Assembly: GCF_014489635.1 (NCBI RefSeq)
Contig: NZ_CP060828.1
Coordinates: 7,924,001-7,988,000, forward strand
Reading direction: 5' to 3'
From: Streptomyces roseirectus
Lineage (GTDB): Bacteria; Actinomycetota; Actinomycetes; Streptomycetales; Streptomycetaceae
Length of the DNA stretch: 64,000 nt
Part shown: piece after piece, positions 41,845 through 59,471 of the stretch
How the letters are laid out: each line of letters opens with the position of its first letter
Position numbering within the stretch: position 1 is the first letter of the stretch
Program-made: the position numbers and the translations under genes
Notes under the pieces: generated by a model
What the model saw: the letters and a program-made list of their open reading frames with translations, nothing else
Told to the model about the DNA's origin: nothing
Database searches by the model: none

Positions 41845-44055
41845 TCAGAGTCGAAGCCCGTCCTGTTCAGCGGGGCGGGCTTCGCGCGTACCCGGCGCCT
41901 CGCCCTCGCGGATCGCGTACCGCCGGTGCAGCCGCCGCAGCGGCGCCGGCGCCCACCACGTCGCCCGCCCGCCGAGCCGCATCGCCGCCGGCAGCAGCGC
42001 GCCCCGGATCAGCGTCGCGTCCATCAGCACCGCCAGCGGCAGCCCCACCCCGTACGCCTTCACGAAGGTGATCCCGGAGACCAGGAACGCCAGGAACACC
42101 ACCGAGATGAGGACGGCGGCGGCGGTCACCATCCGGCCCACCCGCTCAAGTCCCATGGCGACGGCGGCCGTCGGCGACCCGGTGCGCTCGTACTCCTCCC
42201 GGATCCGGGCCAGCATGAACACCTGGTAGTCCATCGCCAGCCCGAAGGAGAGCGCGAACAGCATCACGGGGACGATGGACGCGATCGTGCCGGTGACCGT
42301 GAAACCGCCCAGCAGGGACGCGAGATGACCCTCCTGGAAGATCCACACCAGCGCCCCGAACGTCGCCGTGAGACTCAACCCGCTCAGCATCAGGGCGAGT
42401 ACGGGCAGCAGCACACTGCCCGTCAGCAGGAACAGCAGGACCACCATGGCGAGCGCGACCGCGCCGAGCGCGTACGGCAGCCGGTCGGCGAGCGAGCGCG
42501 TGGTGTCCCGGTCGACGGCCGCGATCCCGCCGACCAGCGTCTCGAACGGCGCGTCCAGCGACCGGACCTCACCCACCAGGGCCTTCGCGTCGGCGGCGGA
42601 GGCGGGCACCACGGAGAGATACGTCCCGCCCCCGATCACGAACCGCTCGTGCGCCGGGCTCGCCGGCGACACCAGCGCCCCCTTCGCGTAGCTCCCGGCC
42701 ACGCTGTCGACGCGGGCGGCGTGCGGGAGCCGCGAGAGGCGGGCGGCGTAACCGGCGACCTCCTCGGCCGGCCCTCCCTCGGCCAACTCAGCCTCGGGTG
42801 CCACCACTTGCAGCGCGTTCAGCTCCCCCGAGTCGAACCCCTCCCGGATGGCCGTGGCGACCTGCCGCGCCTTCGAACTCTCCGGCATGCTCCGCTCGTC
42901 GGCCATCCCCAGCCGCATCCCGAGCGCCGGCGCCCCCAGCAGGATCAGGAACGCCAGCGCGACCGTGACGACCGGCACCGGACGGCGCATCACGAACAGG
43001 GCGAGCCGGTGCCAGAATCCCGTCCGCTCTCGCGCAGAGCCCCCACGCCGGCTCTCCACCCTCGCCCCGAGCACGACGAACAGCGCGGGCAGCACCGTCA
43101 GCGCCGCCCCCGCCGACAGCAGCGCCGTCAGCATCCCGGCGTACGCCATCGACCGCACCGCGGGCAGCGGGAAGAACAGCAGCCCCGCGAGGACGACGGC
43201 GACGGTGACGGCGGAGAACGCGACCGTGCGCCCGGCCGTCACCATCGTCGTCCGCAGCGCCTCCCGGCGGGGTGCCGTGCGCAGTTCGTCGCGGTAGCGG
43301 GTGACCATCAACAGGCAGTAGTCGACGGCGAGTCCGAGACCGAGGAGGGTGACGACGCTCAGCGCGAAGACCGACAGGTCGGTGACGCTCGCCAGGATCC
43401 ACATCAGGCCCATGCCGACGAGCAGCGCGACGAACGCGACGATCAGGGGGAGCAGCGCGGAGACGACGCTGCCGAAGACGACGAACAGGATGACGAGGGT
43501 CACCGGGAACGCGATCAACTCGCCCTTCGCGCCGTCCTGCTGGGTCTGTTTCCCGGCCTCCTGCTGGAACACCGCGTACCCGCCGACGGCGACGTCGAGC
43601 CCGTCCTGCTCGCCCTCGTAGCGCGGCAGCAGCGTGTCGAGCCGCTTGCCGGCCGCCGTCTCGTCCCCGGCGACCGTCGCGACGACCAGCGCCCGCCCGC
43701 CGTCCTCGGAGCGGAGCTGGGGCGCGCGGCCGGCCGTCCAGTACGAGGAGACGTCCCGGACGCCGGGTTCCTCGGCGAGCTTGCGGGTGAGCCGGGTGCC
43801 CGCCTCGGTGGCCGTGGCGTCGTCCACCCCGGCGGGGGCCGTGACCAGCAGCGTCAGGTTCGGGGCGCCCTGGCCCGAGCGCGCCAGGACCGCCGCCGCC
43901 CGGCCCGACTCGGTGGTCGGGTCGGTCAGGCCGCCCGCCGTCAGCTTGTCGAACAGGGTCGCGCTCGCGGCGCCGCCGAGCAGCGCGAGCACCGCCGCCG
44001 TCACGAGCACCGCTCTGCCCCGCCGCCAGATCAACTCCGCCAGTCGTGCCGACAT
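41845..44055 (-). CDS. MMPL/RND-family membrane transporter
   Basis: The 736-residue protein has two repeats of the MMPL fold: a first helix, a large extracytoplasmic domain, and six helices in each half. The conserved Asp/Tyr-type proton-relay segments are GLGLAVDYCLLMVTRYRDE in the first half and ALSFGLAMDYQVFMLARIREEY in the second. This family exports lipids, siderophores or polyketides in actinobacteria. The ATG at 44055 follows GAGGGG. It lies downstream of and co-directional with the ligase/NAT pair, so it could be their exporter, though 151 bases and a hairpin separate them. Confidence 0.93.
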   Translation of the reverse strand: MSARLAELIWRRGRAVLVTAAVLALLGGAASATLFDKLTAGGLTDPTTESGRAAAVLARSGQGAPNLTLLVTAPAGVDDATATEAGTRLTRKLAEEPGVRDVSSYWTAGRAPQLRSEDGGRALVVATVAGDETAAGKRLDTLLPRYEGEQDGLDVAVGGYAVFQQEAGKQTQQDGAKGELIAFPVTLVILFVVFGSVVSALLPLIVAFVALLVGMGLMWILASVTDLSVFALSVVTLLGLGLAVDYCLLMVTRYRDELRTAPRREALRTTMVTAGRTVAFSAVTVAVVLAGLLFFPLPAVRSMAYAGMLTALLSAGAALTVLPALFVVLGARVESRRGGSARERTGFWHRLALFVMRRPVPVVTVALAFLILLGAPALGMRLGMADERSMPESSKARQVATAIREGFDSGELNALQVVAPEAELAEGGPAEEVAGYAARLSRLPHAARVDSVAGSYAKGALVSPASPAHERFVIGGGTYLSVVPASAADAKALVGEVRSLDAPFETLVGGIAAVDRDTTRSLADRLPYALGAVALAMVVLLFLLTGSVLLPVLALMLSGLSLTATFGALVWIFQEGHLASLLGGFTVTGTIASIVPVMLFALSFGLAMDYQVFMLARIREEYERTGSPTAAVAMGLERVGRMVTAAAVLISVVFLAFLVSGITFVKAYGVGLPLAVLMDATLIRGALLPAAMRLGGRATWWAPAPLRRLHRRYAIREGEAPGTREARPAEQDGLRL

Positions 44056-44159
44056 GCCTGTCCCCTCGCCGGTGTCGTGTCGCACACGAGAGGGGCCGAG
44101 CCCGGGGTTTGTGACAGGCGGGAGCGGAAAGAGACGTGGATCACATGTGCGGCCCGGAC

Positions 44160-44206: not shown

Positions 44207-45781
44207 TCACGCCGGTTCGAGGCGTTCCCGCAGCCGGCGGGCCAGCTCCAGGCGCTGGACCTTCATCGTCGCCGTCCGGGGCAGCTCGGCGAGCGGGAGC
44301 TGGATGGGGTCGGCGAGCTGGGGGAAGTCCTTCACCGCGCCCCGCCAGCGCGCCGGGTCCAGCGGCACGTTGTTCTTCGTGCACACCACCGGCACCGCCT
44401 CGCCCGAGGGCCCCGCGACCAGCACCAGCTCGACCAGCTCGTCGAGCCGGCCGAGGACCGCGTCCTCGACCTCCAGCGTGGAGTCGACGTTCTCGATGAC
44501 GTCCACGGCCCGGTCCAGGACGTGGACCCGCCCCCACCGGTCGCGGTAGCCGACGTCACCCGTGCGCCACCAGCGGCCGTCGCACTCCTCCTGGTAGCGC
44601 TCGTCCTCGGCGTAGTAGGTGATCGCGCGGCCGTCGCTCATCACCTCGATGAAGCCGGGCGTCTTCTTCGAGGGCCGCTGCCCGTCGCGCGGCACCACCC
44701 GCAGGTGCGTCATGCCCGGCAGCGGGTAGCCGAGGCAACGGCCGTTCGCCTTCAGGGCGTTCTTGCGGGTGTACCAGCGGGCGACGAGCGGACCGCACTC
44801 GCTCTGCCCGTAGAACTGGAAGAAGATCGGGTTGCGGCGCAAAGACGCCGAGAGCAGCTTGTGGATCGTGGGCGGGTGGATCGCGTCGAACGTGCCGCTG
44901 TAGTACTTGACGTTCGACAGCGGACGCAGCGGATGCTCCACCAACTCCTCCCACTCCACGAAGGTGTTGGGGTGCGTCTCCACGATCCCCGGCCTCGTGC
45001 GCGCCAGCAGCGGCGCGACCCGCTCCGGCTCGGGGTCGTCGATGACGACGACCGGCATGCCGTGCTCCAGCATCACCGCGAGCGCCATGTACATCCGCGA
45101 GTGGACGAACGAGACGTGGACGGCGTACGTCTCCCGCTCCCGGATCAGCCGCACCAACCGCTCCTGCGGCCGGTAACGCCCGCGCAGCGACAGCGCGGTG
45201 TGCACGACCAGCTTGGGCACCCCGGTCGTCCCGGACGTGTGCGTCATCAGCGCCGGCTGGTCCCCGTCGAGCCTGACCGGCGTGCGGCGCGGGGAGCCCG
45301 CCAGCTCCTCCAGGGACACGGTGCCGGGGCGCTCGCCGCGCGGCACGATCACCCGGGCCGCCGACTCGGCCAGCGGCAGACCGGCCAGCGGGCCGCTCAG
45401 CTTGGCCTCGTCGGTGAGGAGGTTGGGCCGCTCCAGGCGGTCGAGGAGCGCGCGGACCGTCGTCCCGTCGAGCGCCGGCGACAGCAGCACCGGCACCGCG
45501 CCGAGCCGCGAGGCCGCGCACGCCAGGAGGTAGATGTCGAAGTTGTGCGTCTTGTAGAGGGCGATGTGTTCACCGGCCCGGACGCCGGCCGCCCACAGCC
45601 GGGCGGCCAGGTCGTCGACGAGGTCGGCGAGCGAGGCGAACGTCAGCTCGCGGCCGGCCTCGGGGACGGTGTCGATGTCGTGGTCCAGGGTGACCGGCAC
45701 CCCCGGGTGCCGGGCCGCCGCCTCCTCGGGCACGAGCCCGAGCCTCAGCGGCTTCTTGCTGGCGGGCAGGTGGAGCGCCAT
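44207..45781 (-). CDS. AMP-binding acyl/aryl-CoA ligase-like enzyme
   Basis: The 524-residue adenylate-forming enzyme has the core motifs THTSGTTGVPKLVVH (A3), FYGQSECGP (A5), WWRTGDVGYRD (A7), RVHVLDRAVDVIENVDS (A8) and the catalytic lysine near the end in PRTATMKVQR (A10). It should activate a carboxylic acid as the adenylate and then the thioester. Two adjacent ATGs exist (45784 and 45781); the second leaves better spacing to AGGAGG. It starts inside the stop of the arylamine N-acetyltransferase gene, so the two enzymes are made together. A ligase feeding acyl-CoA to a NAT-type acyltransferase is the obvious reading. The substrate is unknown. Confidence 0.9.
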   Translation of the reverse strand: MALHLPASKKPLRLGLVPEEAAARHPGVPVTLDHDIDTVPEAGRELTFASLADLVDDLAARLWAAGVRAGEHIALYKTHNFDIYLLACAASRLGAVPVLLSPALDGTTVRALLDRLERPNLLTDEAKLSGPLAGLPLAESAARVIVPRGERPGTVSLEELAGSPRRTPVRLDGDQPALMTHTSGTTGVPKLVVHTALSLRGRYRPQERLVRLIRERETYAVHVSFVHSRMYMALAVMLEHGMPVVVIDDPEPERVAPLLARTRPGIVETHPNTFVEWEELVEHPLRPLSNVKYYSGTFDAIHPPTIHKLLSASLRRNPIFFQFYGQSECGPLVARWYTRKNALKANGRCLGYPLPGMTHLRVVPRDGQRPSKKTPGFIEVMSDGRAITYYAEDERYQEECDGRWWRTGDVGYRDRWGRVHVLDRAVDVIENVDSTLEVEDAVLGRLDELVELVLVAGPSGEAVPVVCTKNNVPLDPARWRGAVKDFPQLADPIQLPLAELPRTATMKVQRLELARRLRERLEPA

Positions 45782-46662
45782 CATCCCTCCTGGGGACTCG
45801 CGAAGGTGGTGGACAGCCGCTGCGTCAGCAGCCGTGCGTCGGTGTCGGTCAGCCGGACGCCGAAGATCTCGCGCAGGGCCCGGACGGCGCCGGCGGCGCC
45901 CAACTCCCGCCGCTCGCCGGCCCCGTCGGTGTGACGGGTCGTCAACTCCGTGTTCAGCAGGGTCTGCTGACTGACTGCGTCGCCGCGCATCGCGACGAGC
46001 TTGCCGGTGAACGTGGAGCGGGGGTGGTGGGCGGTGTAGTGGTTGGAGACGTCGAAGTCGACGGCGTGGTGGCGCTCCAGGCGGAACGCGTACAGGTCGA
46101 ACCAGCCGTCGTCGTGCAGCGACTGGAGGACCCACTGGTCGTCCTCGCGCACCACCCGCCAGGCGAAGCCGCCCTCGGTGTGCGTGGCGCCGTCCGCCAG
46201 GGGCAGCGGGGCGAGCGGGCTCTCGGCGCCGAAACCGACGTCCGCGAGCAGCGTCTCGCCGCCCGCCTCGACGAGGAGCGTGGTGTGGGCGCGGTAGCGG
46301 ACGGTCTTCCTGCCCTGCCGGACGCGGGCGAGGTGCCGGGTCACCGGCAGGCCCAGGCGTTCCAGGGCGGCGGCGAACAGCAGGTTGTGCTCGAAGCAGT
46401 AGCCGCCCCGGCCGCCGGTCACCAACTTGCGCTGGATGTCGGTGAGTTCGAGGGAGACGCCGCGCTCGAGGGCGACATCGACGTTCTCGAAGGCGATCGC
46501 GGCCCGGTGGGCCCGGTGCAGGGCGTCCAGGGTCGTGCGCGTGGCGGTCAGGGGGCCCGCGTGGCCGACGCGGGCCAGGTAGGCGTCGAGGTCCAGGAGG
46601 TCCCCGCCCCACTGCGGGTCCGCCGGTGCTGCCGGGGTGAGTACGGTGTGATCCGTGGCCAT
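45781..46662 (-). CDS. Arylamine N-acetyltransferase 1
   Basis: The 293-residue NAT has the catalytic triad in place: Cys89 in GGRGGYCFEHN, His126 in RYRAHTTLLV and Asp141 in LLADVGFG. Enzymes of this family acetylate arylamines and hydrazines or, in natural-product pathways, act as amide synthases. The ATG at 46662 gives MATDHTV; only a weak ribosome binding site precedes it. It overlaps the ligase gene downstream and follows the transposase-like gene by 56 bases. A second NAT, of a different subtype, lies at 50272-51087. Confidence 0.93.
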   Translation of the reverse strand: MATDHTVLTPAAPADPQWGGDLLDLDAYLARVGHAGPLTATRTTLDALHRAHRAAIAFENVDVALERGVSLELTDIQRKLVTGGRGGYCFEHNLLFAAALERLGLPVTRHLARVRQGRKTVRYRAHTTLLVEAGGETLLADVGFGAESPLAPLPLADGATHTEGGFAWRVVREDDQWVLQSLHDDGWFDLYAFRLERHHAVDFDVSNHYTAHHPRSTFTGKLVAMRGDAVSQQTLLNTELTTRHTDGAGERRELGAAGAVRALREIFGVRLTDTDARLLTQRLSTTFASPQEG

Positions 46663-46718
46663 GCGCCGGATCCTGTAAGCGGCGCCCGGGGCCGGGCAAC
46701 GCGGCCGAAAGCAGTTCG

Positions 46719-47753
46719 TCAGGTCCCGCAGGGCGGCAGCGCGGCGACCGCGCAGGCCACCGACGCGAGCGTCAGATGGCGGTGCCAGCCGGTCAGGGAA
46801 CGGCCCGCGAAGTCCTTCAGACCCGTCTGCCGGGCCCTGGTCACCGCCGTGCGGCCGACCCGGTCGGCGTGCTTGGTCAGGCGCAGCAGGACCGGCGCGG
46901 GCAGGCGCATGTTGGTGACCCACAGGTGGGCCGGCGGCCTGCGCGGGTCGGTCCACTCGCCCAGCAGCAGCGCGGGCCTGCGGGCCGCCGTCGTCACCGG
47001 GACGGCCGCCGCGAGCGACACCGCCGGGGCGGGGGAACCGTCGTGCCACTCGACGGGCCTGCGCAGCGACGTCACCGCCGCGAGGGTGTCGCGCGCCGGA
47101 CGCGGGCCCGCCCCGTACCCCGGCAGGGCGGGGTCCGCCATGCGCAGGGGGGCGGACGGCTGGGTGCGCGCGATCGCCGGGAACGGGGCGAGGGGCAGCC
47201 GGGTGAGGGCGTCGGGGGCGTCGACGCCGTGGACGTCCAGGACGACCGGGCGCCGGGGGGTGTCCGCCGAGCCGAGGGCTTCCAGGACGGCGGCGGTGAC
47301 GCCGTCCTCGTAGGGCTCGTCCGGGACGATGTCGTCGTCCGGGAGGTACAGGCGCCACGCCACGGGGGTGACGACGTCCGGGGAGACGAACCACACGCCG
47401 AACGACTGCCGGCACCGGGGGGTGCCGCACGGGCGTTCGCCGCTCCTCGGCAGCGGCATCGGCTGCACCACCCACGCCGCGAGCGGGTGCGTCGCCGCCA
47501 GCCACTCCACGAGCGCCGCGCGCACCGGACGCCAGTCCCAGGTGGACCCCGTCACCAGGTGGTGCAGCCGCTGCTCGGCCGCCGAGTCGCCGCCCGTGTG
47601 CTGCGCGATGCTCCGGAACGACTTCCGCCCCGGCGTCGACAGCAGCCCCCGCACGTACTCCTCCGCCCGCCGCCGCTGATCACGCCTCGGCAGCGCCCCG
47701 AACACGGCCGCGCACATCTCCCGCGCCGCGTCTTCCTGAACGAGCGTGTTCAT
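46719..47753 (-). CDS. Degenerate IS701-family transposase retained as an intact ORF
   Basis: The 344-residue protein has the IS701 transposase framework: EYVRGLLSTPGRKSFRSIAQ at the N-terminus, GSTWDWRPVRAALVEWL, LYLP in the middle, and the conserved end RSLTGWHRHLTLAS. The catalytic positions are gone. The VVDxTGF aspartate motif reads VVQPMPLP, the second GDS-type aspartate region is replaced by LDVHGVDAP, and the acidic residue before the GWHRH block is not present. No terminal inverted repeats flank it. It is therefore a domesticated DNA-binding protein or a slowly decaying one. The full-length frame, with no stop or frameshift, argues for retention. It lies between the MFS exporter and the NAT/ligase genes. 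Confidence 0.8.
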   Translation of the reverse strand: MNTLVQEDAAREMCAAVFGALPRRDQRRRAEEYVRGLLSTPGRKSFRSIAQHTGGDSAAEQRLHHLVTGSTWDWRPVRAALVEWLAATHPLAAWVVQPMPLPRSGERPCGTPRCRQSFGVWFVSPDVVTPVAWRLYLPDDDIVPDEPYEDGVTAAVLEALGSADTPRRPVVLDVHGVDAPDALTRLPLAPFPAIARTQPSAPLRMADPALPGYGAGPRPARDTLAAVTSLRRPVEWHDGSPAPAVSLAAAVPVTTAARRPALLLGEWTDPRRPPAHLWVTNMRLPAPVLLRLTKHADRVGRTAVTRARQTGLKDFAGRSLTGWHRHLTLASVACAVAALPPCGT

Positions 47754-48041
47754 CGAGCCTCCTGGGACGGTTGGGGGTGGACGACGCCTCGTCGACGCCG
47801 GGGGAGGGGGAGCGGTCCGGAGAAGGAACGCTCCGGAGGAGCGGTCGGCGGGCCCGCCCGGTTCCCGGGGGATTCGCGAGGTGGCCGGTTCACGGCGGTG
47901 CCCGAAGGAGGGGGCCGCCCGCCCCGGGAAGCCCCCTGCCGGGACCGGCCGCCTCGCCGGGCCGCCCGGCACAGGGCTCGCGCGGCTCCGGTCACCTCCC
48001 GGCGGCCGTCCCGGGATTGGCCGGTTCCCCGGCCCTCCGGG
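47754..48041. other. Non-coding stretch between the MFS and transposase-like genes
   Basis: These 288 bases hold no supportable gene. They are rich in GGCCGG and CCCGGG words with several weak hairpins, and no terminal repeats of an insertion sequence could be found next to the transposase-like gene. Confidence 0.5.
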
Positions 48042-49277
48042 TCACGCCAGCGACAGCGCCACGATGGCCGGGCCGAAGGCCGCGCCGAGCTGGTAGCAGA
48101 GGGTGAACAGGCCGAGGGCGGTGGTGCGCAGCCGGTCGGGGGCGCCGGTGACGGCGATGACGGAGAGGGTGGCCTGACCGGAGGCGGTGACGAAGACGGC
48201 GACACCGCCGGCCGCGAGCATGAGCGGCGCGGGGACACCGAGCGCGACGGTGAGCGGGGCCAGCGCGCCGAGCGTCAGCAGCACCGTGAGGACCGTCGAG
48301 CGGCGGATCCGGTTCGCGGAGGCGGCCATGACCCAGGAGAGGGAGGAACCGATGAGGAGGGCGACGAGGATGCCGACGCCGACGGCCGAGGTGTCCCACC
48401 CGGCGTCGTCCTCCAGCAGCCGCGGCACGGCGTACAGGAGCGCGAAGTACGCCGTCGACAGCGAGCACACCACCGCGCACGCCGTGAGGTAGACCGGCGA
48501 GCGCAGCAGCGCGGCCGGCACGAACCCCTCGGGCCGGCGCCGGATCCAGGCGGTGAGCGCGCCGACGAGGACGGCCGCGGCGAGCACCGCCGGCAACGGG
48601 AACCGCCCCAGCAGCACCAGCGAGCTGATCAGCGCCGCGGTGAGCACCGCCCCCGTCGCGTCGAACGCCGTGTGCCCCTCGGCGGGCCGGAACTTAGGCG
48701 CGCGCAGGTACACGTACGGCGCGGCGAGGAGGGCCACGGCGGAGAGGGAGAGCGCCGCGTGCCACGACACGTGGTCGCTGAGCAGCGAACCGGAGAGCGG
48801 CCCGATCGCCCCGAGCATCCCGCTTCCCGCCGTGATGACGCCCATCCGCGCGGGCGTCCCGGCCAGGTTGATCGCGGTGGTGATGAACCCGCCCCCGCCG
48901 AACGCCTGGGCGGCCCGCCCGGCGATCAGCCCCGGCATCGAGTCCGCGGTGAGGACGACCACCGTGCCCGCGATCACCAGTAACGAGCAGAGCAGGACGG
49001 CCGGCCGCACCCCCCGGTGGCGCAGCAGCGCGGCGACCATCGGCGTGCCGAGCGCCATCGCGAGCCCGAACACGGTCGCGATCCAGGTCGCCGCCGGCAC
49101 GGATATCCCGATGCCGTCGGCTATGTCGGGCAGCGTCGTCGTCGCCGCGTTGGCGCTCAGCGCGGTCGGCGTGGCCATGACGCCCAGCGCGAGCGCGGCG
49201 ATCCGGTGCCGTTCGGGCGGCGGCGCTGGTTCGGCCACGGCGTCGCGCGGCTGCTGGTCCGGTGCGGAACGGGTCAT
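48042..49277 (-). CDS. MFS multidrug-type exporter with a TTA codon
   Basis: The 411-residue protein has about twelve membrane helices and DHA-type motifs (LALGVMATPTALSANAATTTLPDIA, GLIAGRAAQAFGGGGFITTAINL). It is a likely proton-driven exporter. Codon 99 is TTA (forward-strand 48981-48983, protein context LLCSLLVIAG), so translation should need the bldA tRNA and be linked to development or secondary metabolism. It is divergent from the TetR gene at 49469, the classic exporter/repressor arrangement. The ATG at 49277 has a weak ribosome binding site. Confidence 0.92.
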   Translation of the reverse strand: MTRSAPDQQPRDAVAEPAPPPERHRIAALALGVMATPTALSANAATTTLPDIADGIGISVPAATWIATVFGLAMALGTPMVAALLRHRGVRPAVLLCSLLVIAGTVVVLTADSMPGLIAGRAAQAFGGGGFITTAINLAGTPARMGVITAGSGMLGAIGPLSGSLLSDHVSWHAALSLSAVALLAAPYVYLRAPKFRPAEGHTAFDATGAVLTAALISSLVLLGRFPLPAVLAAAVLVGALTAWIRRRPEGFVPAALLRSPVYLTACAVVCSLSTAYFALLYAVPRLLEDDAGWDTSAVGVGILVALLIGSSLSWVMAASANRIRRSTVLTVLLTLGALAPLTVALGVPAPLMLAAGGVAVFVTASGQATLSVIAVTGAPDRLRTTALGLFTLCYQLGAAFGPAIVALSLA

Positions 49278-49358
49278 GACAGGGAGCCCTTCTGGGACGT
49301 GACGCAGCAGCGAAGTCGTGATAACAGAGGGTGAACTACTGCGCGTAGAGTATGTGTT

Positions 49359-49369
49359 GCACCAGGTGC
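49359..49369. promoter_or_regulatory. Short palindrome between MFS and TetR genes
   Basis: GCACC-A-GGTGC is a perfect 11-base inverted repeat in the 191-base region between the divergent exporter and TetR genes. It is a candidate operator, but short palindromes are common in GC-rich DNA. Confidence 0.35.
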
Positions 49370-49468
49370 TGTAAACAATGCGACGATCGATGTAGGTCCA
49401 ACGGTGTAGACCCCCGCCCACCAGCGGACGGGTACGCTGCGGATCCACGGCCGAGCGGAGGGACTGCG

Positions 49469-50128
49469 ATGACGGTGGGAACGACGGCGGACACCCGTCG
49501 CGGCATGCCGGAGAAACGACGGGCGATCATGCGGGCGGCCCGCGCCGTGTTCGGACGAGAGGGCTACACCCGGGCCGGGGTCGACACCATCGCCCTGGAG
49601 GCCGGCGTCTCCAACAGGACCATCTACAACCACTTCGCCGACAAGGAACAGCTCTTCCAGATGGTCGCCCTGGAGGGCGCCGAACAGGTCACCGCCGCCA
49701 TCGCGGAGATCCTGGAACGCCACCTCCGCAAGATCGTCGACGTCCGCGAGGACCTGATCGCCTTCGCCCTGGAGCGCGTCCAGGCGGTCACCGAGTTCCC
49801 CGACCACTTCGCCCTCGTCCGCACCATCGAGGCCGAGGCGTCCCGCATCCCCGTCGACGTACTGGAGTCCTGGCGCGACGTCGGCCCGCTCTCCGCGCAC
49901 AAGCGGCTCGCCCCCTACCTGCGCCGCATCGGCGAACGCGGCCTCCTCGACCTCGACGACGCCGAACGCGCCGCCAACCACTTCAACCTGCTGACCATCA
50001 TCGACGTCAACCAGCGCACCTTCTACGGCGCCCTGCCCCTGCCCGGACCCGAGGTCACCACCATCGTCATCGAGGGCGTCGACACGTTCCTGCGCCTCTA
50101 CGGCACCGGACGGGCGACGGAACACTGA
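49469..50128 (+). CDS. TetR-family transcriptional regulator
   Basis: The 219-residue protein has the TetR helix-turn-helix (AIMRAARAVFGREGYTRAGVDTIALEAGVSNRTIYNHFADKEQLFQ, about residues 20-64) and a C-terminal domain of the TetR_C_7 type (FNLLTIIDVNQRTFYGALP). The ATG at 49469 follows GCGGAGGG. It is divergent from the MFS exporter and co-directional with the NAT2-hydroxylase genes that follow after 143 bases, so it may control both. A hairpin overlaps its stop codon. Confidence 0.93.
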   Translation: MTVGTTADTRRGMPEKRRAIMRAARAVFGREGYTRAGVDTIALEAGVSNRTIYNHFADKEQLFQMVALEGAEQVTAAIAEILERHLRKIVDVREDLIAFALERVQAVTEFPDHFALVRTIEAEASRIPVDVLESWRDVGPLSAHKRLAPYLRRIGERGLLDLDDAERAANHFNLLTIIDVNQRTFYGALPLPGPEVTTIVIEGVDTFLRLYGTGRATEH

Positions 50129-50161
50129 CCGCGCCCCCGATCCGGCGGACGCGCTGGTCAG
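50125..50161 (+). terminator. Possible hairpin terminator after the TetR gene
   Basis: CTGACCGCGC at 50125-50134 pairs with GCGC-T-GGTCAG at 50151-50161 with one bulge. The stem includes the stop codon. It would separate the regulator transcript from the following NAT-hydroxylase operon. Confidence 0.5.
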
Positions 50162-50271
50162 CTCCCCACTCCACGCCCCGCTCCGGGACCTGACGGACTC
50201 GCCCCGGTGCCCTTTGTGCCCCTGCGGACGGCCACCGATGCTGGCCGGGCAGGAGACCTAGGGGGGCGGAG

Positions 50272-51087
50272 ATGGACGGTGAGGCCACGGGCCGGGCGCG
50301 GCACGCCCTGGACGCCTACCTGCGGCGGCTCGGCGTCCCACGGCCAGAGCGGGCCGACCTGGAGACGCTGGCCCGGCTCCAGGACCGCCACCTGCGGACC
50401 GTGCCGTTCGAGACGATCGACTTCAACCTCGGCATCCCCGTCCGCCTCGGCGAGGGCGCCGTCGAGAAGATCGCCCACCGGCACCGGGGCGGCGGCTGCT
50501 ACGAGCTGAACACCGCCTTCGCGCTCCTGCTGCGCGACCTCGGCTACCAGGTCGACCTGCTGTCCGGCCGCACCCTGCACGACGGCAGGCGAGCCCCGCT
50601 CGGCGTCCTCGGCGGCCACCTCATGCTGAAGGTGACGATCGACGGCGAACCCTGGCTCGTCGACGTCGGCTTCCGCTGGGCGAACCAAGGCCCCCTGCGC
50701 CTGCGCGAGCGCGGCCCGCAGAAGGACGAGAACGGCGAGTACCGCATCCTCGACGCCGACCACGGCGACGTCGTCATCGTCCACGACGGCGTCCCCCGCG
50801 TCCGCCTGGAGACCCGGCCCCGCGACCCCGAGGACTTCGCCGCGACCCTGTGGTGGTTCGCCACCGCCCCCGAATCCCCCGTCACCGGCACCACGGTGTG
50901 GGCGTCCATCGTGACCGGCACCGGCCGGGTCTCCCTCCTGGACCGCACCCTCACCCGCGAGGAACACGGCGAACGGATCCGCGACGTCCTCGACGACGAC
51001 GCCTTCCCCGCCGCCTGCCGGCGCTGGTTCGGCATCGAACTGGACCGCCTGCCGACGCTCCCGCCGCTGCCGGCCGACCCCTCCTGA
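50272..51087 (+). CDS. Arylamine N-acetyltransferase 2
   Basis: The 271-residue NAT has catalytic Cys76 in RGGGCYELN, His116 in GGHLMLKV and Asp131 in WLVDVGFR. The RGGGC context, not RGGYC, and the shorter length set it apart from the NAT at 45781-46662, so it is not a recent duplicate. The ATG at 50272 follows GGGGGGCGGAG. It heads an operon with an aromatic hydroxylase (17-base gap), a small unknown protein and an esterase. An acetylation or amide-forming step on an aromatic amine is likely. Confidence 0.93.
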   Translation: MDGEATGRARHALDAYLRRLGVPRPERADLETLARLQDRHLRTVPFETIDFNLGIPVRLGEGAVEKIAHRHRGGGCYELNTAFALLLRDLGYQVDLLSGRTLHDGRRAPLGVLGGHLMLKVTIDGEPWLVDVGFRWANQGPLRLRERGPQKDENGEYRILDADHGDVVIVHDGVPRVRLETRPRDPEDFAATLWWFATAPESPVTGTTVWASIVTGTGRVSLLDRTLTREEHGERIRDVLDDDAFPAACRRWFGIELDRLPTLPPLPADPS

Positions 51088-51104
51088 CCAGAAAGCGGAA
51101 GGCG

Positions 51105-52685
51105 ATGAAGAGCACCGAACGCACAGAGAAGATCTTCGACGTCCTGGTCGTCGGGGCCGGCCCCTCCGGGCTGCTCCTCGGCTGCGAACTCCTCAGCCGG
51201 GGCGTCCGGGTCAGGATCGTCGACGCGGCCCCCGAGCCGACCCGCGTCCCCCGCGCGCTGTCCATCTACCCCCGCGCCCTGGACATCCTCGCCGACCAGG
51301 GCCTGCGCGACGCGGTCTACGAGGTGTCCGGCACGATCCGCACCCTCAGCTATTTCTCCGAACGAAACCACTTGGCCTCGTTCCACATCCCCGAGGAGCA
51401 CGCGGCCCGCGTCCTGCCCCAGTACGAGACCGAGCGCATCCTCACCGAACGCCTCGAAGCCCTCGGCGGCAAGGTCGAGCGCGGAGTGCGCCTGCTCTGC
51501 CTGGAGAACGTCGACTTCAGCGGCCGCATCGAGAACACCGACGGCGTCACCGCCGTCCTCGAAGGCGCCGACGGCATCGTCGAGCGCGCCGTCGCCTCGT
51601 ACGTCGTCGGCGCCGACGGCGCGGGCAGCGCGGTGCGCGGCCAGCTCGGCATCGGCTTCCACGGGTCCACCTACGGGCTGGAGTTCGCTCTCGTCGACGC
51701 GCGGATCGACGGCCGCCTCGACCCCGAGGAGATCCTGTACTACCAGGGCCCCACCGGCACCCTCGCCGTCGTCCCGCACCCGGGCGGCGTCTTCCGCTTC
51801 CTGTCCGTCCTGCCGCAGGGCGTCGCGAAGAGCGCCGGCGTCGCGATGATGCAGGAGATCGTCGACGAACGCGGCCCGCGCGGCATCCGCATCACCGAGC
51901 CCGTGTGGACGACCGTCTTCCGCGTCCACGCCCGCCTCGCCGCCGACTTCCAGCTCGGCCGCGTCTTCCTGATCGGCGACGCCGCGCACGTCCACAGCCC
52001 GGCCGGCGGACAGGGCATGAACAACGGCCTCCAGGACGCGCACAACCTCGGCTGGAAACTCGCCGCCGTCCTCCGGGGCACCTCCCCTGTCTCCCTCCTC
52101 GACACCTACGGCCCCGAACGCTCCGAGGCCACCCGGCGCAGCGTCCGCGACACCGACCTGCACACCAAGGCGTGGATGGCCAAGGGCAAGACACGCGTGC
52201 GCGTGCGGGACGCCGGGTTCAAACTCGCCGAGCGCACCGGAGCCGTCTCCCGCCTGTACGCGCCCGTCCTCGCCGGACGCCGCCAGACCTACCCCGTCCC
52301 GCGCGACACCCAGCTGCCGTCCGGTGTCTCGCCCTGCCAGGCGCGCGCGAAACTCCCCGGCGGCATCGGCGTCGGCGGGCTCTTCCCGCGCGAACAGGCC
52401 CTCGCGCACGGCGTCACCGGGCCGCACTGGACCCTCGTCCTCACCGGCACCACCCTCGACGCCGGACCCTGGCGCGCCCAGGTCGGCCACATCGCCGCCC
52501 GCTGGCCCCACCTGAAGACCGTCACCGTGCCCGCCCGCAGCCTCGCCGCCGCGACCGGCTGCCGCCGGCTCGGCTACCACCTCGTCCGGCCCGACGGCCA
52601 CATCGCCGCGCACGGCCACGAGCACGACCTCAGCCGCCTGGAACAGGAACTCGCCGCCGGCCTCGGGCCCGGGAAGCGGGGCTGA
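51105..52685 (+). CDS. FAD-dependent aromatic hydroxylase (PheA/TfdB type)
   Basis: The 526-residue flavoprotein monooxygenase has the dinucleotide fold VLVVGAGPSGLLLGCELLSRG, the DG motif VVGADGAGSAVR and the FAD-phosphate motif RVFLIGDAAHVHSPAGGQGMNNGLQDAHNLGWKLA. A thioredoxin-like C-terminal domain follows (VPARSLAAATG). It belongs to the group that hydroxylates phenols, polyketides or rifamycin-like compounds. The ATG at 51105 follows GGAAGG. It lies between NAT2 and a small unknown gene, so the NAT substrate may be its product or precursor. Confidence 0.94.
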   Translation: MKSTERTEKIFDVLVVGAGPSGLLLGCELLSRGVRVRIVDAAPEPTRVPRALSIYPRALDILADQGLRDAVYEVSGTIRTLSYFSERNHLASFHIPEEHAARVLPQYETERILTERLEALGGKVERGVRLLCLENVDFSGRIENTDGVTAVLEGADGIVERAVASYVVGADGAGSAVRGQLGIGFHGSTYGLEFALVDARIDGRLDPEEILYYQGPTGTLAVVPHPGGVFRFLSVLPQGVAKSAGVAMMQEIVDERGPRGIRITEPVWTTVFRVHARLAADFQLGRVFLIGDAAHVHSPAGGQGMNNGLQDAHNLGWKLAAVLRGTSPVSLLDTYGPERSEATRRSVRDTDLHTKAWMAKGKTRVRVRDAGFKLAERTGAVSRLYAPVLAGRRQTYPVPRDTQLPSGVSPCQARAKLPGGIGVGGLFPREQALAHGVTGPHWTLVLTGTTLDAGPWRAQVGHIAARWPHLKTVTVPARSLAAATGCRRLGYHLVRPDGHIAAHGHEHDLSRLEQELAAGLGPGKRG

Positions 52686-52687
52686 CG

Positions 52688-52954
52688 ATGCCCCTCCGGG
52701 CGGTCGCCCGCCGGCCGGTCGCCGCCCCCGGCCCCGCCGCGCTGAGCCAGGCGGCGCCCGTGCCGGACGGCCGGATCGGCGTCCACCCGCACGCCCGCAC
52801 GACCGGCCGGTCCAGCGTGAGCGCCGCGTCCGTCGTCGCCGACCGGCTCACCGCCCGGTACGGCATGCCGCGCGTCCTCGCCCGAGACGAGGACGACGTG
52901 CTTCGGCGGTACGAACCCTTCGGGCGGGCGCGGGAGGGGCCGGCGCGGGGGTGA
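52688..52954 (+). CDS. Small protein of unknown function
   Basis: The 88-residue ORF begins two bases after the hydroxylase stop codon, so it would be translated by coupling, since no ribosome binding site is visible. The product is basic at the start and has an acidic, possibly helical second half (SVVADRLTARYG, RDEDDVLRRYEPFG). I recognise no family. The frame uses GC-rich codons like its neighbours. It could be a helper of the hydroxylase or a non-functional leftover. Confidence 0.45.
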   Translation: MPLRAVARRPVAAPGPAALSQAAPVPDGRIGVHPHARTTGRSSVSAASVVADRLTARYGMPRVLARDEDDVLRRYEPFGRAREGPARG

Positions 52955-53021
52955 GGACGTCGCAAGGCGGGCCCTGGCGGACGTGCCGGGGCCCCTTACT
53001 TTTCAGAGGAGTCGTACGAGC

Positions 53022-54569
53022 ATGACCTCCGGTCTCACCACCACCTCTGTCGTGCGGATCGCGAGTGGCGAGCTGCGCGGCACCCTGGAGACGTGCCGGC
53101 AGCGTCCGCTGCACGTCTTCCGGGGTGTGCCCTACGCCCGCGCCGCACGCTTCGCCTCGCCCCGCCCGGCCGACCCCTGGACCGACGTCCGCGACGCGAC
53201 CGTCTTCGCCCCGGCCTTCCTCCAGCCCGGTGTTCCTGACAGCACCGAGGACGCCCTGTACGCCAACGTGTGGACGCCCGACCCCGGCGCCCGCCTGCCC
53301 GTGCTGGTCTACGTCCACGGCGGCGGCTGGCAGGTCGGCTCCGGGAGCGCGCCCACCTTCGACGGGGCCAAGCCCGCCGCGCTCGGCAATATGGTCGTCG
53401 TCACCTTCAACTACCGCCTCGGTGCCTTTGGTTGGGGGCTGCACGAGGCGTTCGAGGACCCCGGCACCGGGCGCTTCGCGAACTGGGGGCTCCAGGACCA
53501 GGCCGCGCTGCTGCGCTGGGTCCGCGACAACATCGAGGCGTTCGGCGGGGACCCCGGCGCCATCACCCTGTGCGGCACCTCCGCCGGCTCCGTCTGCGCC
53601 CGCCTCCTCACCGCCGCCGAGGAGACCCGGGGCATCGCGCGCCGGCTCATCGCGATCAGCGCGAGCCGGCCCTGGGCCCCCACGATGGGGCTCACCCCCG
53701 CCGACGCGACCCGCGCGTACGAACTGATCGCCGGGCAACTCGGGGTCGGCGTACGGGACTTGCGCACGGTACCGGCGGGCGCCCTGTTCGCCGCGTGGAA
53801 CGCGCTCTTCGACGGGCCGCCCGCCGGGCGGGTGCTGGGCAGCGGACGTGAGTACCGGGGGCCGGTGCTCGACGCGCCGACCGGCGTGGGGAAGGAGCCC
53901 GTCGTCCCGGCGATACCGGTGATGTCGGTCCACAACCGCACCGAGGGCTCCTTCTTCACCGACCCGCACAGCGTGTCCTTCCCCCCGGCGCCGCCCGCGC
54001 CCACCGACGAACGCGAACTGCGGGCCGCCGTACGGGAGGTGATGCTCAAGTGCACCGACTCCGTACCCGACTGGCAGCCCGCCGCGTGCGTGGCCGCGTA
54101 CCGCGAGGCCGCGCTCGACGAGGGCCGGCCCGCCGATCCGCTCTCCCTGTGGACCGAGGTGTGGGGGGACGCCGTCTTCCGCTACCAGATCGTGCGGCTC
54201 GCCCAGCGGCACGCGCTGCGGGGGGCCTCCCCGCAGTACGTGATGGAGTTCGCGCATCCGGTGCGGGCGCCGCACTTCGGGACGCCGCACGACGCGACGT
54301 CCAAGTTCCTCTTCGGGTCCCACGCCCACCCCCTGTTCGTGGGGCAGTTCGGGGACGGGCCGCTGGAGCGGCGGGTGTCGGACACGTTCGTGGACCTCGT
54401 CGCGTCCTTCGTGCGCGGGGAGGCGCCGGCGGAGGAGTGGCCGGTGTACGCGCCGGGGACGCCGAGTGCGTTGATCCTGGGCGGGGTCGAGGGGGCTCGG
54501 GTGGAACACCCGTCGAAGCTGCGGCAGTTGGAGTTCTGGGACGAGGTGGAGTGGCTGCCGGGAGCGTAG
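53022..54569 (+). CDS. Carboxylesterase (type B / p-nitrobenzyl-esterase-like)
   Basis: The 515-residue alpha/beta hydrolase has VFRGVPYA near the start, the oxyanion motif YVHGGGWQVGS, the nucleophile elbow LCGTSAGSVCA (GTSAG for the common GESAG), and a catalytic His late in the sequence (MEFAHPV region or later). No signal peptide is evident, so it is cytoplasmic. The ATG at 53022 lies 10 bases after GAGGAG. It ends the NAT2-hydroxylase group, and a strong U-tract terminator follows. Confidence 0.92.
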   Translation: MTSGLTTTSVVRIASGELRGTLETCRQRPLHVFRGVPYARAARFASPRPADPWTDVRDATVFAPAFLQPGVPDSTEDALYANVWTPDPGARLPVLVYVHGGGWQVGSGSAPTFDGAKPAALGNMVVVTFNYRLGAFGWGLHEAFEDPGTGRFANWGLQDQAALLRWVRDNIEAFGGDPGAITLCGTSAGSVCARLLTAAEETRGIARRLIAISASRPWAPTMGLTPADATRAYELIAGQLGVGVRDLRTVPAGALFAAWNALFDGPPAGRVLGSGREYRGPVLDAPTGVGKEPVVPAIPVMSVHNRTEGSFFTDPHSVSFPPAPPAPTDERELRAAVREVMLKCTDSVPDWQPAACVAAYREAALDEGRPADPLSLWTEVWGDAVFRYQIVRLAQRHALRGASPQYVMEFAHPVRAPHFGTPHDATSKFLFGSHAHPLFVGQFGDGPLERRVSDTFVDLVASFVRGEAPAEEWPVYAPGTPSALILGGVEGARVEHPSKLRQLEFWDEVEWLPGA

Positions 54570-54656: not shown

Positions 54657-56030
54657 TCAGTCGCCCAACGCCCGGTCCACCAAGGCAGGCGCCGCCCCCA
54701 AGTACCGGGTGGGATCGCAGAGTTCGGCGACCTCCTCGGCGGGGACCTCGGGGAGCAGGCCGGCCAGCACGGCGGCCAGGGGCTGACCGGACGCGTCGGC
54801 CTCGACGGAGGCGCGGGTGAGGAGTTCACGGGCGCGGGCCCTGCCGAGGCGGGGGGTGAGACGGGCCGCGATCCGCTCCGACACGATCTGACTGCCTGTC
54901 AAGTCCAGGTTGGCGCGCATCCGTCCGGGGTCGACCACAAGACCTGAGGCCAGCTCCACGGCCGTGTGCGCCGCGCCGCCCACCAGACGCAGACACTCCC
55001 GCAGCAACAGCCACTCGGCGTGCCAGGCCCCGGCCGAGCGCTCGTCCTCCGTCACCATGCACTGCGTCAACGCCCCCGCCAGCGCCGGGACTTGCAGCGC
55101 AGCCGAGCGGATCATCGTGCTCAGCACCGGGTTGCGCTTGTGCGGCATCGCCGAGGACGCGCCCCGCCCGGACACCGGCGGCTCCGCCACCTCCCCGACC
55201 TCCGTGCGCGCCAGCGCCTGCACGTCGACGGCGACCCGGCCGAGCGCCCCCGCCGTGAACGCCAGCACGGCGGCGAGGTCCGCGAACGGGGTGCGCAGCG
55301 AATGCCAGGGCAGTGCGGGGACGGCGAGGCCCGTCTCGGCGGCGAACGCCTCGACCAGACGGTCCGGATAGCCGGCCCTGTCGCCGGGCGCCCCGTCCAC
55401 CGCCGCGTACTCCAGGTACCCGGCGAGCGTGCCGGCCGCGCCGCCGAGCGACACCGGCAGCCCCTCGTCCGCCACCCGGGCCAGCCGGCGCCGGGCGTCG
55501 AGGAGCAGTTCCCGCCACCCCGCCGCCTTCAGACCGAACGTCGTGGGCACGGCGTGCAGCGCCAGCGTCCGGCCCGCCATCGGGGTGTCCCGGTGGGCGC
55601 GGGCCGAACTGCCCAGCGCGTCCGCCGACTTGTCGAGGTCCGCGACGATCAGGCGCAGCGCGCGCCGGGCGATCAGCATCGCCGCCGTGTCGAGGACGTC
55701 CTGGCTCGTGGAGCCCCGGTGCACGAACTCCGCCGCGCTCGGGTCGACTTGGGCCACCCGCCGGGTGAACGCCTGGACCAGCCCCACGACCGGGTTCGCC
55801 GTCTCCCGCGAGGCCAGCGCCAACGCCCGTACGTCCAGGCCCCCTTCGGCCGCGACCGCGCTGATGACCCGCGCCGCGTCCTCCGGCACCGTCCCGAGCC
55901 CCGCCTGCGCCCGCACCAGCGCCGCCTCGGTGTCCAGCATCGCCTGCACCCACGCGTCGTCGGCGACGACCGTCTCCACGGGGGTGCCGGCGCGGACGGG
56001 GGAGAGGAGACCGGAGTCGGGGGCGGTCAT
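54657..56030 (-). CDS. pcaB: 3-carboxy-cis,cis-muconate cycloisomerase-like lyase
   Basis: The 457-residue fumarase/aspartase-superfamily protein has the signature GRGASSAMPHKRNPV near residues 270-284 and the catalytic-His region of the family (VHRGSTSQDVLDTA near 105). Length and sequence (TPVETVVADDAWVQAMLDTEAALVRAQA) match PcaB of the protocatechuate branch of the beta-ketoadipate pathway. No pcaG, pcaH, pcaC, pcaD, pcaI or pcaJ lies nearby. The ATG at 56030 gives MTAPDSGLL. It may act in another ring-degradation route or be the only copy and serve a remote pca operon. Confidence 0.85.
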   Translation of the reverse strand: MTAPDSGLLSPVRAGTPVETVVADDAWVQAMLDTEAALVRAQAGLGTVPEDAARVISAVAAEGGLDVRALALASRETANPVVGLVQAFTRRVAQVDPSAAEFVHRGSTSQDVLDTAAMLIARRALRLIVADLDKSADALGSSARAHRDTPMAGRTLALHAVPTTFGLKAAGWRELLLDARRRLARVADEGLPVSLGGAAGTLAGYLEYAAVDGAPGDRAGYPDRLVEAFAAETGLAVPALPWHSLRTPFADLAAVLAFTAGALGRVAVDVQALARTEVGEVAEPPVSGRGASSAMPHKRNPVLSTMIRSAALQVPALAGALTQCMVTEDERSAGAWHAEWLLLRECLRLVGGAAHTAVELASGLVVDPGRMRANLDLTGSQIVSERIAARLTPRLGRARARELLTRASVEADASGQPLAAVLAGLLPEVPAEEVAELCDPTRYLGAAPALVDRALGD

Positions 56031-58499: not shown

Positions 58500-59471
58500 A
58501 TGCGTGCCGCCTACATCACCGAACTCGGGCCGTCCGACGGGATCCGCCACGGCGACCTGCCCGAGCCGACGCCCGGACCGACCGACGTGCTGGTAGAGGT
58601 CGAGTGCACCACCGTCAACCCCGTCGACACCCTCGTGCGCTCCGGACGGTTCCGCACCCCCGTCCCGCTGCCCCTGGTCGTCAGCCGCGACCTCGTCGGC
58701 ACCGTCCTGACCGCGGGCCCCGGCGCCCCCGGCTTCCGCCCCGGCGACCGGGTGTGGACCAACTCCCTGGGCCACGGCGGACGTCAGGGCGCCGCCGCCG
58801 AGCGGGCCGTCGTCCCCGCCGACCGGCTCTACCACCTGCCGCCCGGCGCCGACGCCGAACAGGCCGTCGCCGTGCTGCATCCCGGAGCCACCGCCTACCT
58901 CGCACTGTTCAGCGAGGCCCGACTGAGGCCGGGGGAGACGGTGTTCGTGGCGGGCGGCGCCGGGAACGTCGGCAGCGCGCTCGTGACGCTGGCCGTCGAG
59001 GCGGGCGCCCGCGTCGTGGCGTCGGCGTCGGCGGCGGACGCCGGGTACGTGCGCGGGCTCGGCGCCGAGGCCGTACTCGACTACCGGGCACCGGACTTCG
59101 GGAAGTGGCTCGGACGGATCGACGTCCACCTCGACAGCTTCGGCACCAACGACCTCAGCCAGGCGGTGGAGTTGATCGCGCCCCGGGGCCGGATCGTGCT
59201 GCTCGCGGGGGTGGCCGCACGACCTGTCCTGCCCGTCGGGCCCTTCTACCAGAAGGACGCCTCGATCCTCGGGTTCGTCATCTCGCACGCGACGACCGGA
59301 CAGCTCGCCGAGGCCGCCGTCACCGTCAACCGCCTCGTCGCGGCGGGGAGGTTGACGCCCCGGCACATCGAGCGCGTGCCCCTGAGTGAGATGGCCGACG
59401 CCCATCTGCGCATGGAGAAGGGCGAGTTGCGCGGCAGACGGCTCATCGTCCGCCCCGACCTGGACCGTTAG
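58500..59471 (+). CDS. NADPH:quinone oxidoreductase family (MDR) protein
   Basis: The 323-residue protein has a GroES-like domain (VLVEVECTTVNPVDTLVRSG, PLPLVVSRDLVGTVL) and the cofactor loop VAGGAGNVGSALVTLAVEAGARVVASAS near residues 150-178. No zinc ligands are seen. It is distinct from the MDR protein at 35487. ATG 58500 has no clear ribosome binding site; an ATG 36 bases upstream is in frame. It heads a probable operon with a FAD monooxygenase (10-base gap), a SRPBCC protein and possibly an FAH-family enzyme. Confidence 0.9.
   Translation: MRAAYITELGPSDGIRHGDLPEPTPGPTDVLVEVECTTVNPVDTLVRSGRFRTPVPLPLVVSRDLVGTVLTAGPGAPGFRPGDRVWTNSLGHGGRQGAAAERAVVPADRLYHLPPGADAEQAVAVLHPGATAYLALFSEARLRPGETVFVAGGAGNVGSALVTLAVEAGARVVASASAADAGYVRGLGAEAVLDYRAPDFGKWLGRIDVHLDSFGTNDLSQAVELIAPRGRIVLLAGVAARPVLPVGPFYQKDASILGFVISHATTGQLAEAAVTVNRLVAAGRLTPRHIERVPLSEMADAHLRMEKGELRGRRLIVRPDLDR

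Follow-up and report, generated by a model that had tools for sequence, protein, structure and literature searches.

The 64,000-nucleotide stretch of the Streptomyces roseirectus chromosome that we analysed (C1:7924001-7988000, hereafter the window, from a genome of 9.95 Mb in a single contig) carries a real, conserved gene cluster of the aspartate–nitrosuccinate (ANS) type, which occupies ~44.2–61.3 kb of the window (gene coordinates below are window positions) and is co-inherited in related Streptomyces. Our best explanation, to which we give about an even chance, is a split cluster resembling that of penzonemycin (pzm), of which the window would hold the tailoring and nitrous acid-forming half while the amine would be supplied from elsewhere on the chromosome. 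A sequence-only reading of the same DNA had proposed, at 44207..54569, a cluster for acylated aromatic amines, and its interpretation is partly supported. The genes that it listed are all present, i.e. a ligase (LIG) whose gene overlaps that of a protein with the arylamine N-acetyltransferase (NAT) fold (NAT1), a transposase-like protein (TNP), an MFS exporter, a TetR regulator, a second NAT (NAT2), a hydroxylase (HYD), a small open reading frame (ORF), an esterase (EST) and an MMPL transporter, but the right-hand part of the cluster lies outside those coordinates, and creD, creE and the genes for a quinone reductase (QOR), a second FAD hydroxylase (HB6) and an SRPBCC protein were missed.

The nitrous acid core

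At the level of protein families, the ANS pathway is represented in the window by a nitrosuccinate lyase, CreD, and an adjacent CreE-type FAD enzyme. CreD matched the CreD structure in the PDB (5xny) with 582 bits, and in a genome-wide search a single protein exceeded the cut-off for nitrosuccinate lyases. CreE aligned over nearly its full length (8–634) with PDB entry 8cp2, which bears just the name ‘FAD-binding protein’ and which we take to be a nitrosuccinate synthase; no NCBIfam model matched CreE. Both genes are on one strand, creE being the upstream one, with 331 bp between them. Judged by family, the two proteins almost certainly constitute a pathway from aspartate to nitrous acid.

The CreE match of Streptomyces typhae (C27:14164-16248, L128) falls in two pieces within one open frame of 711 amino acids. 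In addition, five of the 15 loci compared in detail below (G215, G108, G173, G134 and G289) have genes for a NasC-like nitrate reductase and two NirB-like flavoproteins in or beside the cluster (L069:5064-9905, L042, L043, L071 and L037), and in G215 these genes adjoin LIG; they are a possible second source of nitrite.

Conservation of the cluster in Streptomyces

The sequence-only reading had named beforehand a lack of co-inheritance in other Streptomyces as a finding that would count against it, and the loci of relatives bear co-inheritance out. In Streptomyces acidiscabies the genes are arranged as LIG-NAT1-TNP-MFS, TetR-KASIII-NAT2-HYD-LLM-EST, CreD-CreE and QOR-HB6-SRPBCC, which is the gene order of the window, and the shared genes are 78–94% identical, with the exception of that for the SRPBCC protein, which was matched solely via a relative's protein. 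In Streptomyces phaeofaciens, Streptomyces aureocirculatus and S. typhae, PhzE, PhzD, DhbA, 3-deoxy-D-arabino-heptulosonate 7-phosphate (DAHP) synthase, EST, NAT1, LIG and HYD are encoded contiguously and CreD/CreE, QOR, HB6 and the SRPBCC protein ~40 kb away on the same contig, the gene set being spread over about 40–50 kb. For a detailed comparison we used 15 genomes, namely that of the window and 14 chosen for LIG or CreE similarity, represented by stretches of unequal length; among their loci CreE was found in 14, CreD and the TNP family in 13 each, the HYD family and QOR in 12 each, the SRPBCC family in ten and EST in four. EST is also present in the clusters of four named relatives, and HYD adjoins LIG in several relatives.

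The wider survey covered 295 genomes of the genus, our own included. A CreE-like protein was matched in 241 of them and LIG in 103 (both at E≤1e-60), and our own PhzE in 108 (E≤1e-190); these figures, like the linkage figures, are counted among the matches listed, and short contigs hide neighbours, so that absences are not firm. Linkage was assessed within a radius of 40 kb for the 112 listed LIG matches with an identity of 50% or more, own excluded, which merged to 100 loci. CreE and PhzE were both nearby in 22 of these, CreE only in 12, PhzE only in six and neither in 60 (34 with CreE and 28 with PhzE overall), where a rough random expectation for CreE near a given place, assuming 1.3 CreE per genome, is ~1%. 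The best 70 of the 112 matches, corresponding to 58 loci, gave 22 with both, 11 with CreE only, six with PhzE only and 19 with neither, so that 33 of these best-scoring loci have CreE within 40 kb and 28 have PhzE. As the linkage is confined to these best 70 matches, the close homologues of LIG appear to be tied to a supply of nitrous acid and the distant group does not.

A candidate amine source at 3.40 Mb

Several relatives carry, inside the cluster, a phzE-phzD-dhbA-DAHP synthase cassette for 3-hydroxyanthranilate (3-HAA), and no 3-HAA genes were found among the cluster genes of the window. The genome has a cassette of its own at C1 3402043-3408297, which encodes DAHP synthase, DhbA, PhzD, PhzE, shikimate kinase (AroK) and chorismate synthase (AroC), with PhzE, PhzD, DhbA and DAHP synthase in one operon. 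The PhzE protein scored 763 bits against 3r74, PhzD 322 bits against the PhzD structure 1nf9 and DhbA 353.5 bits against TIGR04316 (cut-off 300), and DAHP synthase scored 411 bits against DAHP_synth_II, below the cut-off of 614.7. Adjoining the cassette are genes for a TetR protein 59–60% identical to the TetR of the window, an IS701-like protein 43–45% identical to TNP and a PucR-type regulator. S. acidiscabies shows the same two-locus layout, its PhzE (91%) being encoded on a contig distinct from LIG and CreE. The amine of the pathway is probably 3-HAA, supplied by this distant cassette.

The two loci also have a candidate TetR operator in common. The pattern TTRCACC-N6-TGYA is shared by the window, S. 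acidiscabies and G215, in each case between the MFS and TetR genes, and it has three matches in the 9.95 Mb genome: that in the window (49357-49373), one at 3.40 Mb between the TetR and IS701-like genes, and one at C1:3033833, where no cluster-type gene was recognized in the surrounding 3 kb. This number is not above chance, since a reversed control pattern gave four matches, and it is the placement alone that is telling. Within 25 stretches (983 kb in total) five matches were found, all in these regions, where 0.5 would be expected from mononucleotide shuffles; three of the five are the regions from which the pattern was derived, and the 3.40 Mb region had already been seen when the pattern was chosen. 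In S. acidiscabies the operator precedes the IS701-like gene, where no TetR was found, and conservation of this site proves little because that whole stretch is 87% conserved.

Several observations tell against a division of the pathway between these loci. The operator at 3.40 Mb precedes the IS701-like gene and not the phz operon. In a tree, our own PhzE groups only with its S. acidiscabies counterpart, apart from the PhzE proteins linked to the closest LIG relatives, which speaks against the 3.40 Mb cassette having merely broken away from one ancestral cluster. PhzE-type cassettes are, moreover, common without this cluster: among 74 PhzE places (the best 73 matches, own excluded, plus G279), CreE lies within 40 kb in 25, LIG in 28 and neither in 43. 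The genome itself contains three PhzE-like genes (C1:3403789, 6897380 and 8859118, i.e. at 3.40, 6.90 and 8.86 Mb). The discordant tree, the three copies and the 43 places without CreE and LIG would all fit an alternative in which the 3.40 Mb cassette serves another product and the window cluster uses a different amine. We regard this alternative as conceivable rather than probable, as the TetR and TNP paralogues and the common candidate operator at 3.40 Mb argue against it, as does the identical two-locus layout of S. acidiscabies. PhzD-, DhbA- and HB6-like genes were also seen near the PhzE-like gene at 8.86 Mb.

The role of the ligase

The adenylation-motif residues of LIG (TSGTTG.PK, YGQSE, D409, DR..D at 423–427 and K507), whose roles we assume to be those usual for such motifs, are invariant across 40 aligned sequences. 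With creD and creE next door, LIG may be a CreM-like nitrite-using enzyme and not the plain acyl-activating ligase of the sequence-only reading. In a tree, the cluster ligases fall into two clades, one holding the CreE-adjacent ligase of clusters with two ligases and the other containing LIG, which is 50–56% identical to the CreE-adjacent enzymes. In the window's clade, creD/creE were not seen accompanied by another ligase of this kind (in our own genome, just five of 91 candidates were scored), and LIG is therefore the foremost candidate to use nitrite. Of the 120 relatives listed for a CreE-adjacent ligase, none could be identified as CreM or Pzm18, and a plasmid search gave ligases of <60% identity in 32 of 32 records, 26 of these from Streptomyces.

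A further group of findings weighs against use of nitrite by LIG. Against the AvaA6 diazotase model (NF058622) LIG reached just 65.2 bits, far below the cut-off of 975, and its best NCBIfam matches are fatty-acyl-CoA ligases. Since it is the other clade that supplies the CreE-adjacent ligase of two-ligase clusters, LIG could correspond to the acyl-activating partner. In the remaining 42 LIG loci, CreE was found in one and PhzE in none, this lower-scoring group (~50–53% identity) being near either of them almost never; with 60 of the 100 listed loci near neither, a general tie of the LIG family to nitrous acid does not hold. In the draft genome of Streptomyces niveiscabiei, LIG is 94% identical and lies on a contig of 9.2 kb, and the best CreE match, at just 63%, is on another contig. 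The corresponding explanation is that LIG is a carboxylic acid ligase which feeds an acyl group to NAT1, with the nitrite from CreD/CreE used elsewhere, by another enzyme or non-enzymatically, e.g. by nitrosation. The adjacency of LIG and NAT1 (in six of the 15 genomes' loci and in all five named loci) is in its favour, together with the fatty-acyl-CoA ligase matches, the position of the other clade beside CreE and the 60 loci without CreE or PhzE. We nevertheless regard it as conceivable rather than probable, as it would leave CreD and CreE without a partner in a clade where no second ligase was seen beside them, and as LIG is itself a relative, at 50–56% identity, of the CreE-adjacent ligases.

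Gene content and state of the window copy

The features of the cluster are collected in Table 1. The stop codon of NAT1 and the start of LIG overlap.

Table 1. Features of the cluster, with window positions, strand and supporting matches
Feature	Position	Strand	Evidence
LIG, class I adenylate-forming ligase, 524 amino acids	44207..45781	-	PF00501 128 bits
NAT1, arylamine N-acetyltransferase fold	45781..46662	-	PF00797 197.6 bits (cut-off 22.8)
TNP, IS701-derived protein	46719..47753	-	NCBIfam NF033540 188 bits (cut-off 150)
MFS exporter (predicted)	48042..49277	-	PF07690 105 bits
Candidate TetR operator TTRCACC-N6-TGYA, MFS/TetR intergenic region	49357..49373	+	Pattern search
TetR-family regulator	49469..50128	+	PF00440, PF14246
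NAT2, second NAT	50272..51087	+	PF00797 158.3 bits (cut-off 22.8)
HYD, FAD-dependent aromatic-ring hydroxylase	51105..52685	+	PF01494 230 bits
88-amino-acid ORF, remnant of LLM-class (F420-type) oxidoreductase	52688..52954	+	tblastn to L089, E=9.4e-10
EST, type-B carboxylesterase	53022..54569	+	PF00135 244 bits
CreD, nitrosuccinate lyase	54657..56030	-	NF052556 758.9 bits (cut-off 650); 5xny
CreE, FAD-dependent nitrosuccinate synthase type	56362..58341	-	8cp2 648 bits; PF13454
QOR, quinone oxidoreductase; Pzm13 counterpart by type and size	58500..59471	+	
HB6, 3-hydroxybenzoate 6-hydroxylase family FAD mono-oxygenase	59482..60672	+	NF006021 452.4 bits, just below cut-off 459; start codon from gene call
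SRPBCC/polyketide_cyc2 protein; Pzm19 counterpart by type and size	60708..61253	+	PF10604 43.7 bits
MMPL transporter, doubtful member	41845..44085	-	PF03176

NAT1 and NAT2 are the sole PF00797 matches in the genome, and in both proteins the Cys, His and Asp residues that we presume to act as the catalytic triad align with those of solved NATs. Against the arylamine NAT 2bsz, which is the best solved relative of NAT1, the two scored 180 and 97 bits, and against the amide synthase GdmF 71 and 58 bits respectively. The proposal that these proteins are amide synthases of the rifamycin/geldanamycin type (RifF/GdmF) was therefore rejected, as arylamine NATs outscore GdmF and there is no polyketide synthase among the cluster genes scanned. 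Non-ribosomal peptide synthetases were likewise not found among them, in agreement with the sequence-only reading. Upstream of the cluster, the window encodes a type III polyketide synthase of the RppA type (28648-29649); such an enzyme was seen with the cluster only in G141, where a 70% homologue adjoins LIG.

The window copy is eroded when compared with those of S. acidiscabies and G215. In both relatives a gene for a β-ketoacyl synthase III (KAS III) lies between those of TetR and NAT2, and it is absent from the window. Both also have, directly after HYD, an intact gene for an LLM-class oxidoreductase of ~305 amino acids (307 in L089 and 304 in L094), of which DNA remnants are left in the window; the supposed small unknown gene is the 88-amino-acid remnant of this gene, and we rejected it as a real gene on account of its match to the intact oxidoreductase of the two relatives. 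With KAS III and most of the LLM-class gene lost, the product may differ from that of the relatives or the pathway may be decaying. That the cluster makes no final product in this strain seems distinctly unlikely to us: two genes that are intact in S. acidiscabies and G215 have been lost or reduced, but all other members, creD and creE included, are open frames of normal codon composition, with a GC content of 0.93–0.98 at third codon positions. The MMPL transporter gene is present beside LIG, as the sequence-only reading had noted, but no MMPL gene lies between the ligase and AhpD in S. acidiscabies, and we dropped it as a sure member of the cluster.

Putative regulators

The sequence-only reading had called TNP a dead transposase. 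TNP scored 186–188 bits, compared with an equal 397 bits for four full IS701 copies elsewhere in the genome; these copies (C1:4532301, 4535132, 6706279 and 9420592) are probably an active insertion sequence. With one active-type copy as the reference for the aspartate pair, which we take to be catalytic, aspartate was retained in none of the 15 TNP-type rows of the alignment, from which row IS_L100 was excluded for its wrong reading frame. The loss of the aspartate pair agrees with the earlier description, but TNP is not mere transposase debris: its family is kept in 13 of the 15 loci and the loss is uniform. That a catalytically inactive protein of this kind has been conserved points to domestication for DNA binding, possibly as a regulator of the cluster. 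Among the papers listed by a literature search on IS701-like cluster regulators, none contained the word IS701.

A link of the MFS exporter to bldA had also been proposed. The gene does contain one TTA codon (48983-48981, codon 99), but the TTA codon of the S. acidiscabies gene is at a different place and the G215 gene has none, which weakens the case for bldA control.

Comparison with known systems

The nearest published cluster that we found is that of penzonemycin from Streptomyces sp. SCSIO 40020 (PMC9323291), and the comparison rests on annotation and size from its gene table only. According to that table, CreD (pzm11), CreE (pzm12), a quinone reductase (pzm13), a CreM-like ligase (pzm18), an SRPBCC protein (pzm19), a transposase (pzm10) and an MFS protein (pzm15) are common to both, and the set of CreD, CreE, quinone reductase, ligase, SRPBCC protein and transposase-like gene occurs together in the window. 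By annotation, much of the gene set has thus been described before, and the claim of a wholly undescribed type does not hold. The table places the 3-HAA genes (pzm6-9) inside the pzm cluster, whereas their counterparts here are at 3.40 Mb. It also lists an acetolactate synthase (pzm16), a second ligase and a 171-amino-acid acetyltransferase for pzm only (no acetolactate synthase was found among the window cluster genes scanned), and the two PF00797 NATs, the two FAD hydroxylases and the esterase are found in the window and not in that table. In the same report Pzm18 is given as 48% identical to CreM, and the cluster is assigned to penzonemycin by bioinformatics only (PMC9323291).

The cremeomycin (cre) cluster likewise combines the supply of nitrous acid by CreD/CreE with a ligase of the ANL superfamily. 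Its amine is described as 3-amino-4-hydroxybenzoate (3,4-AHBA), made by CreH and CreI (PMC11429834), neither of which was recognized among the window cluster genes scanned; according to the same source, several strains carry creD/creE homologues that do not lie in predicted clusters. The avenalumic acid (ava) and p-coumaric acid (cma) clusters are reported to couple the ANS pathway to an ATP-dependent diazotase, as proposed here, and offer a published precedent for diazotases within the ANL superfamily (PMC10777205); they differ in having ketosynthase/chain-length-factor genes and 3,4-AHBA synthases, and in an AvaA6 model under which LIG falls far short. For ring A of paulomycin (pau17-21), PhzE, PhzD, DhbA, DAHP synthase and Pau17, a 3-hydroxybenzoate 6-hydroxylase homologue, are proposed in one route of the 3-HAA type, and the passages that describe it contain no ANS genes. 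The arylamine N-acetyltransferases of Streptomyces griseus and Pseudomonas chlororaphis have the same fold as NAT1 and NAT2 and a published action on 2-aminophenol; the route of the latter is shared with phenazine-1-carboxylic acid, and no ANS cluster is mentioned in the passages concerned. Further sources for these comparisons are PMC11705231, PMC7236291 and PMC4425429. No description of the present cluster was recognized among the papers listed from the open-access literature, subscription journals lying mostly outside the search.

Proposed pathway and significance

In the split cluster that we favour, CreE, judged by its family, almost certainly converts aspartate into nitrosuccinate, from which CreD frees nitrous acid. 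LIG would most likely activate nitrite with ATP and join it to an aromatic amine to give a diazo intermediate, the amine most likely being 3-HAA or an aminophenol derived from it and supplied by the DAHP synthase-DhbA-PhzD-PhzE-AroK-AroC operon at 3.40 Mb, so that the N–N bond would be built on an aminophenol. HB6 and HYD may hydroxylate the ring, QOR and the SRPBCC protein may act on quinone-type intermediates, and the two NATs may acylate the amine or hydrazine nitrogen; export would fall to the MFS protein and regulation to the TetR and IS701-derived proteins. The substrate of the ligase, the contribution of the 3.40 Mb cassette and a product of the diazo/hydrazone type are inferred. The N-acylated, hydroxylated aromatic product of the sequence-only reading is still plausible, but both the nitrous acid supply and the probable distant amine source had been missed.

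A bolder and, in our estimate, unlikely version is that the two loci are one pathway in two parts, a 3-HAA factory at 3.40 Mb and a module of nitrous acid supply, ligase and twin NATs at 7.97 Mb, tied together by operator-sharing TetR paralogues and dead IS701-derived regulators. The product would then be an aminophenol of a new class, an N-acylated diazo, hydrazone or azo compound in which a single ligase–NAT pair would both join and cap the two nitrogens.

Clusters of the nitrous acid-forming kind yield natural products with diazo, hydrazone and triazene groups. Searches that expect a polyketide synthase or non-ribosomal peptide synthetase, or all genes together, could misread the cluster described here. 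If the split is real, a search around creD/creE alone can hide the source of the amine. The conserved, dead IS701-like gene, present in 13 of 15 loci, could represent a novel type of cluster regulator, and the ligase–NAT pair offers a direct route to how nitrite is used.

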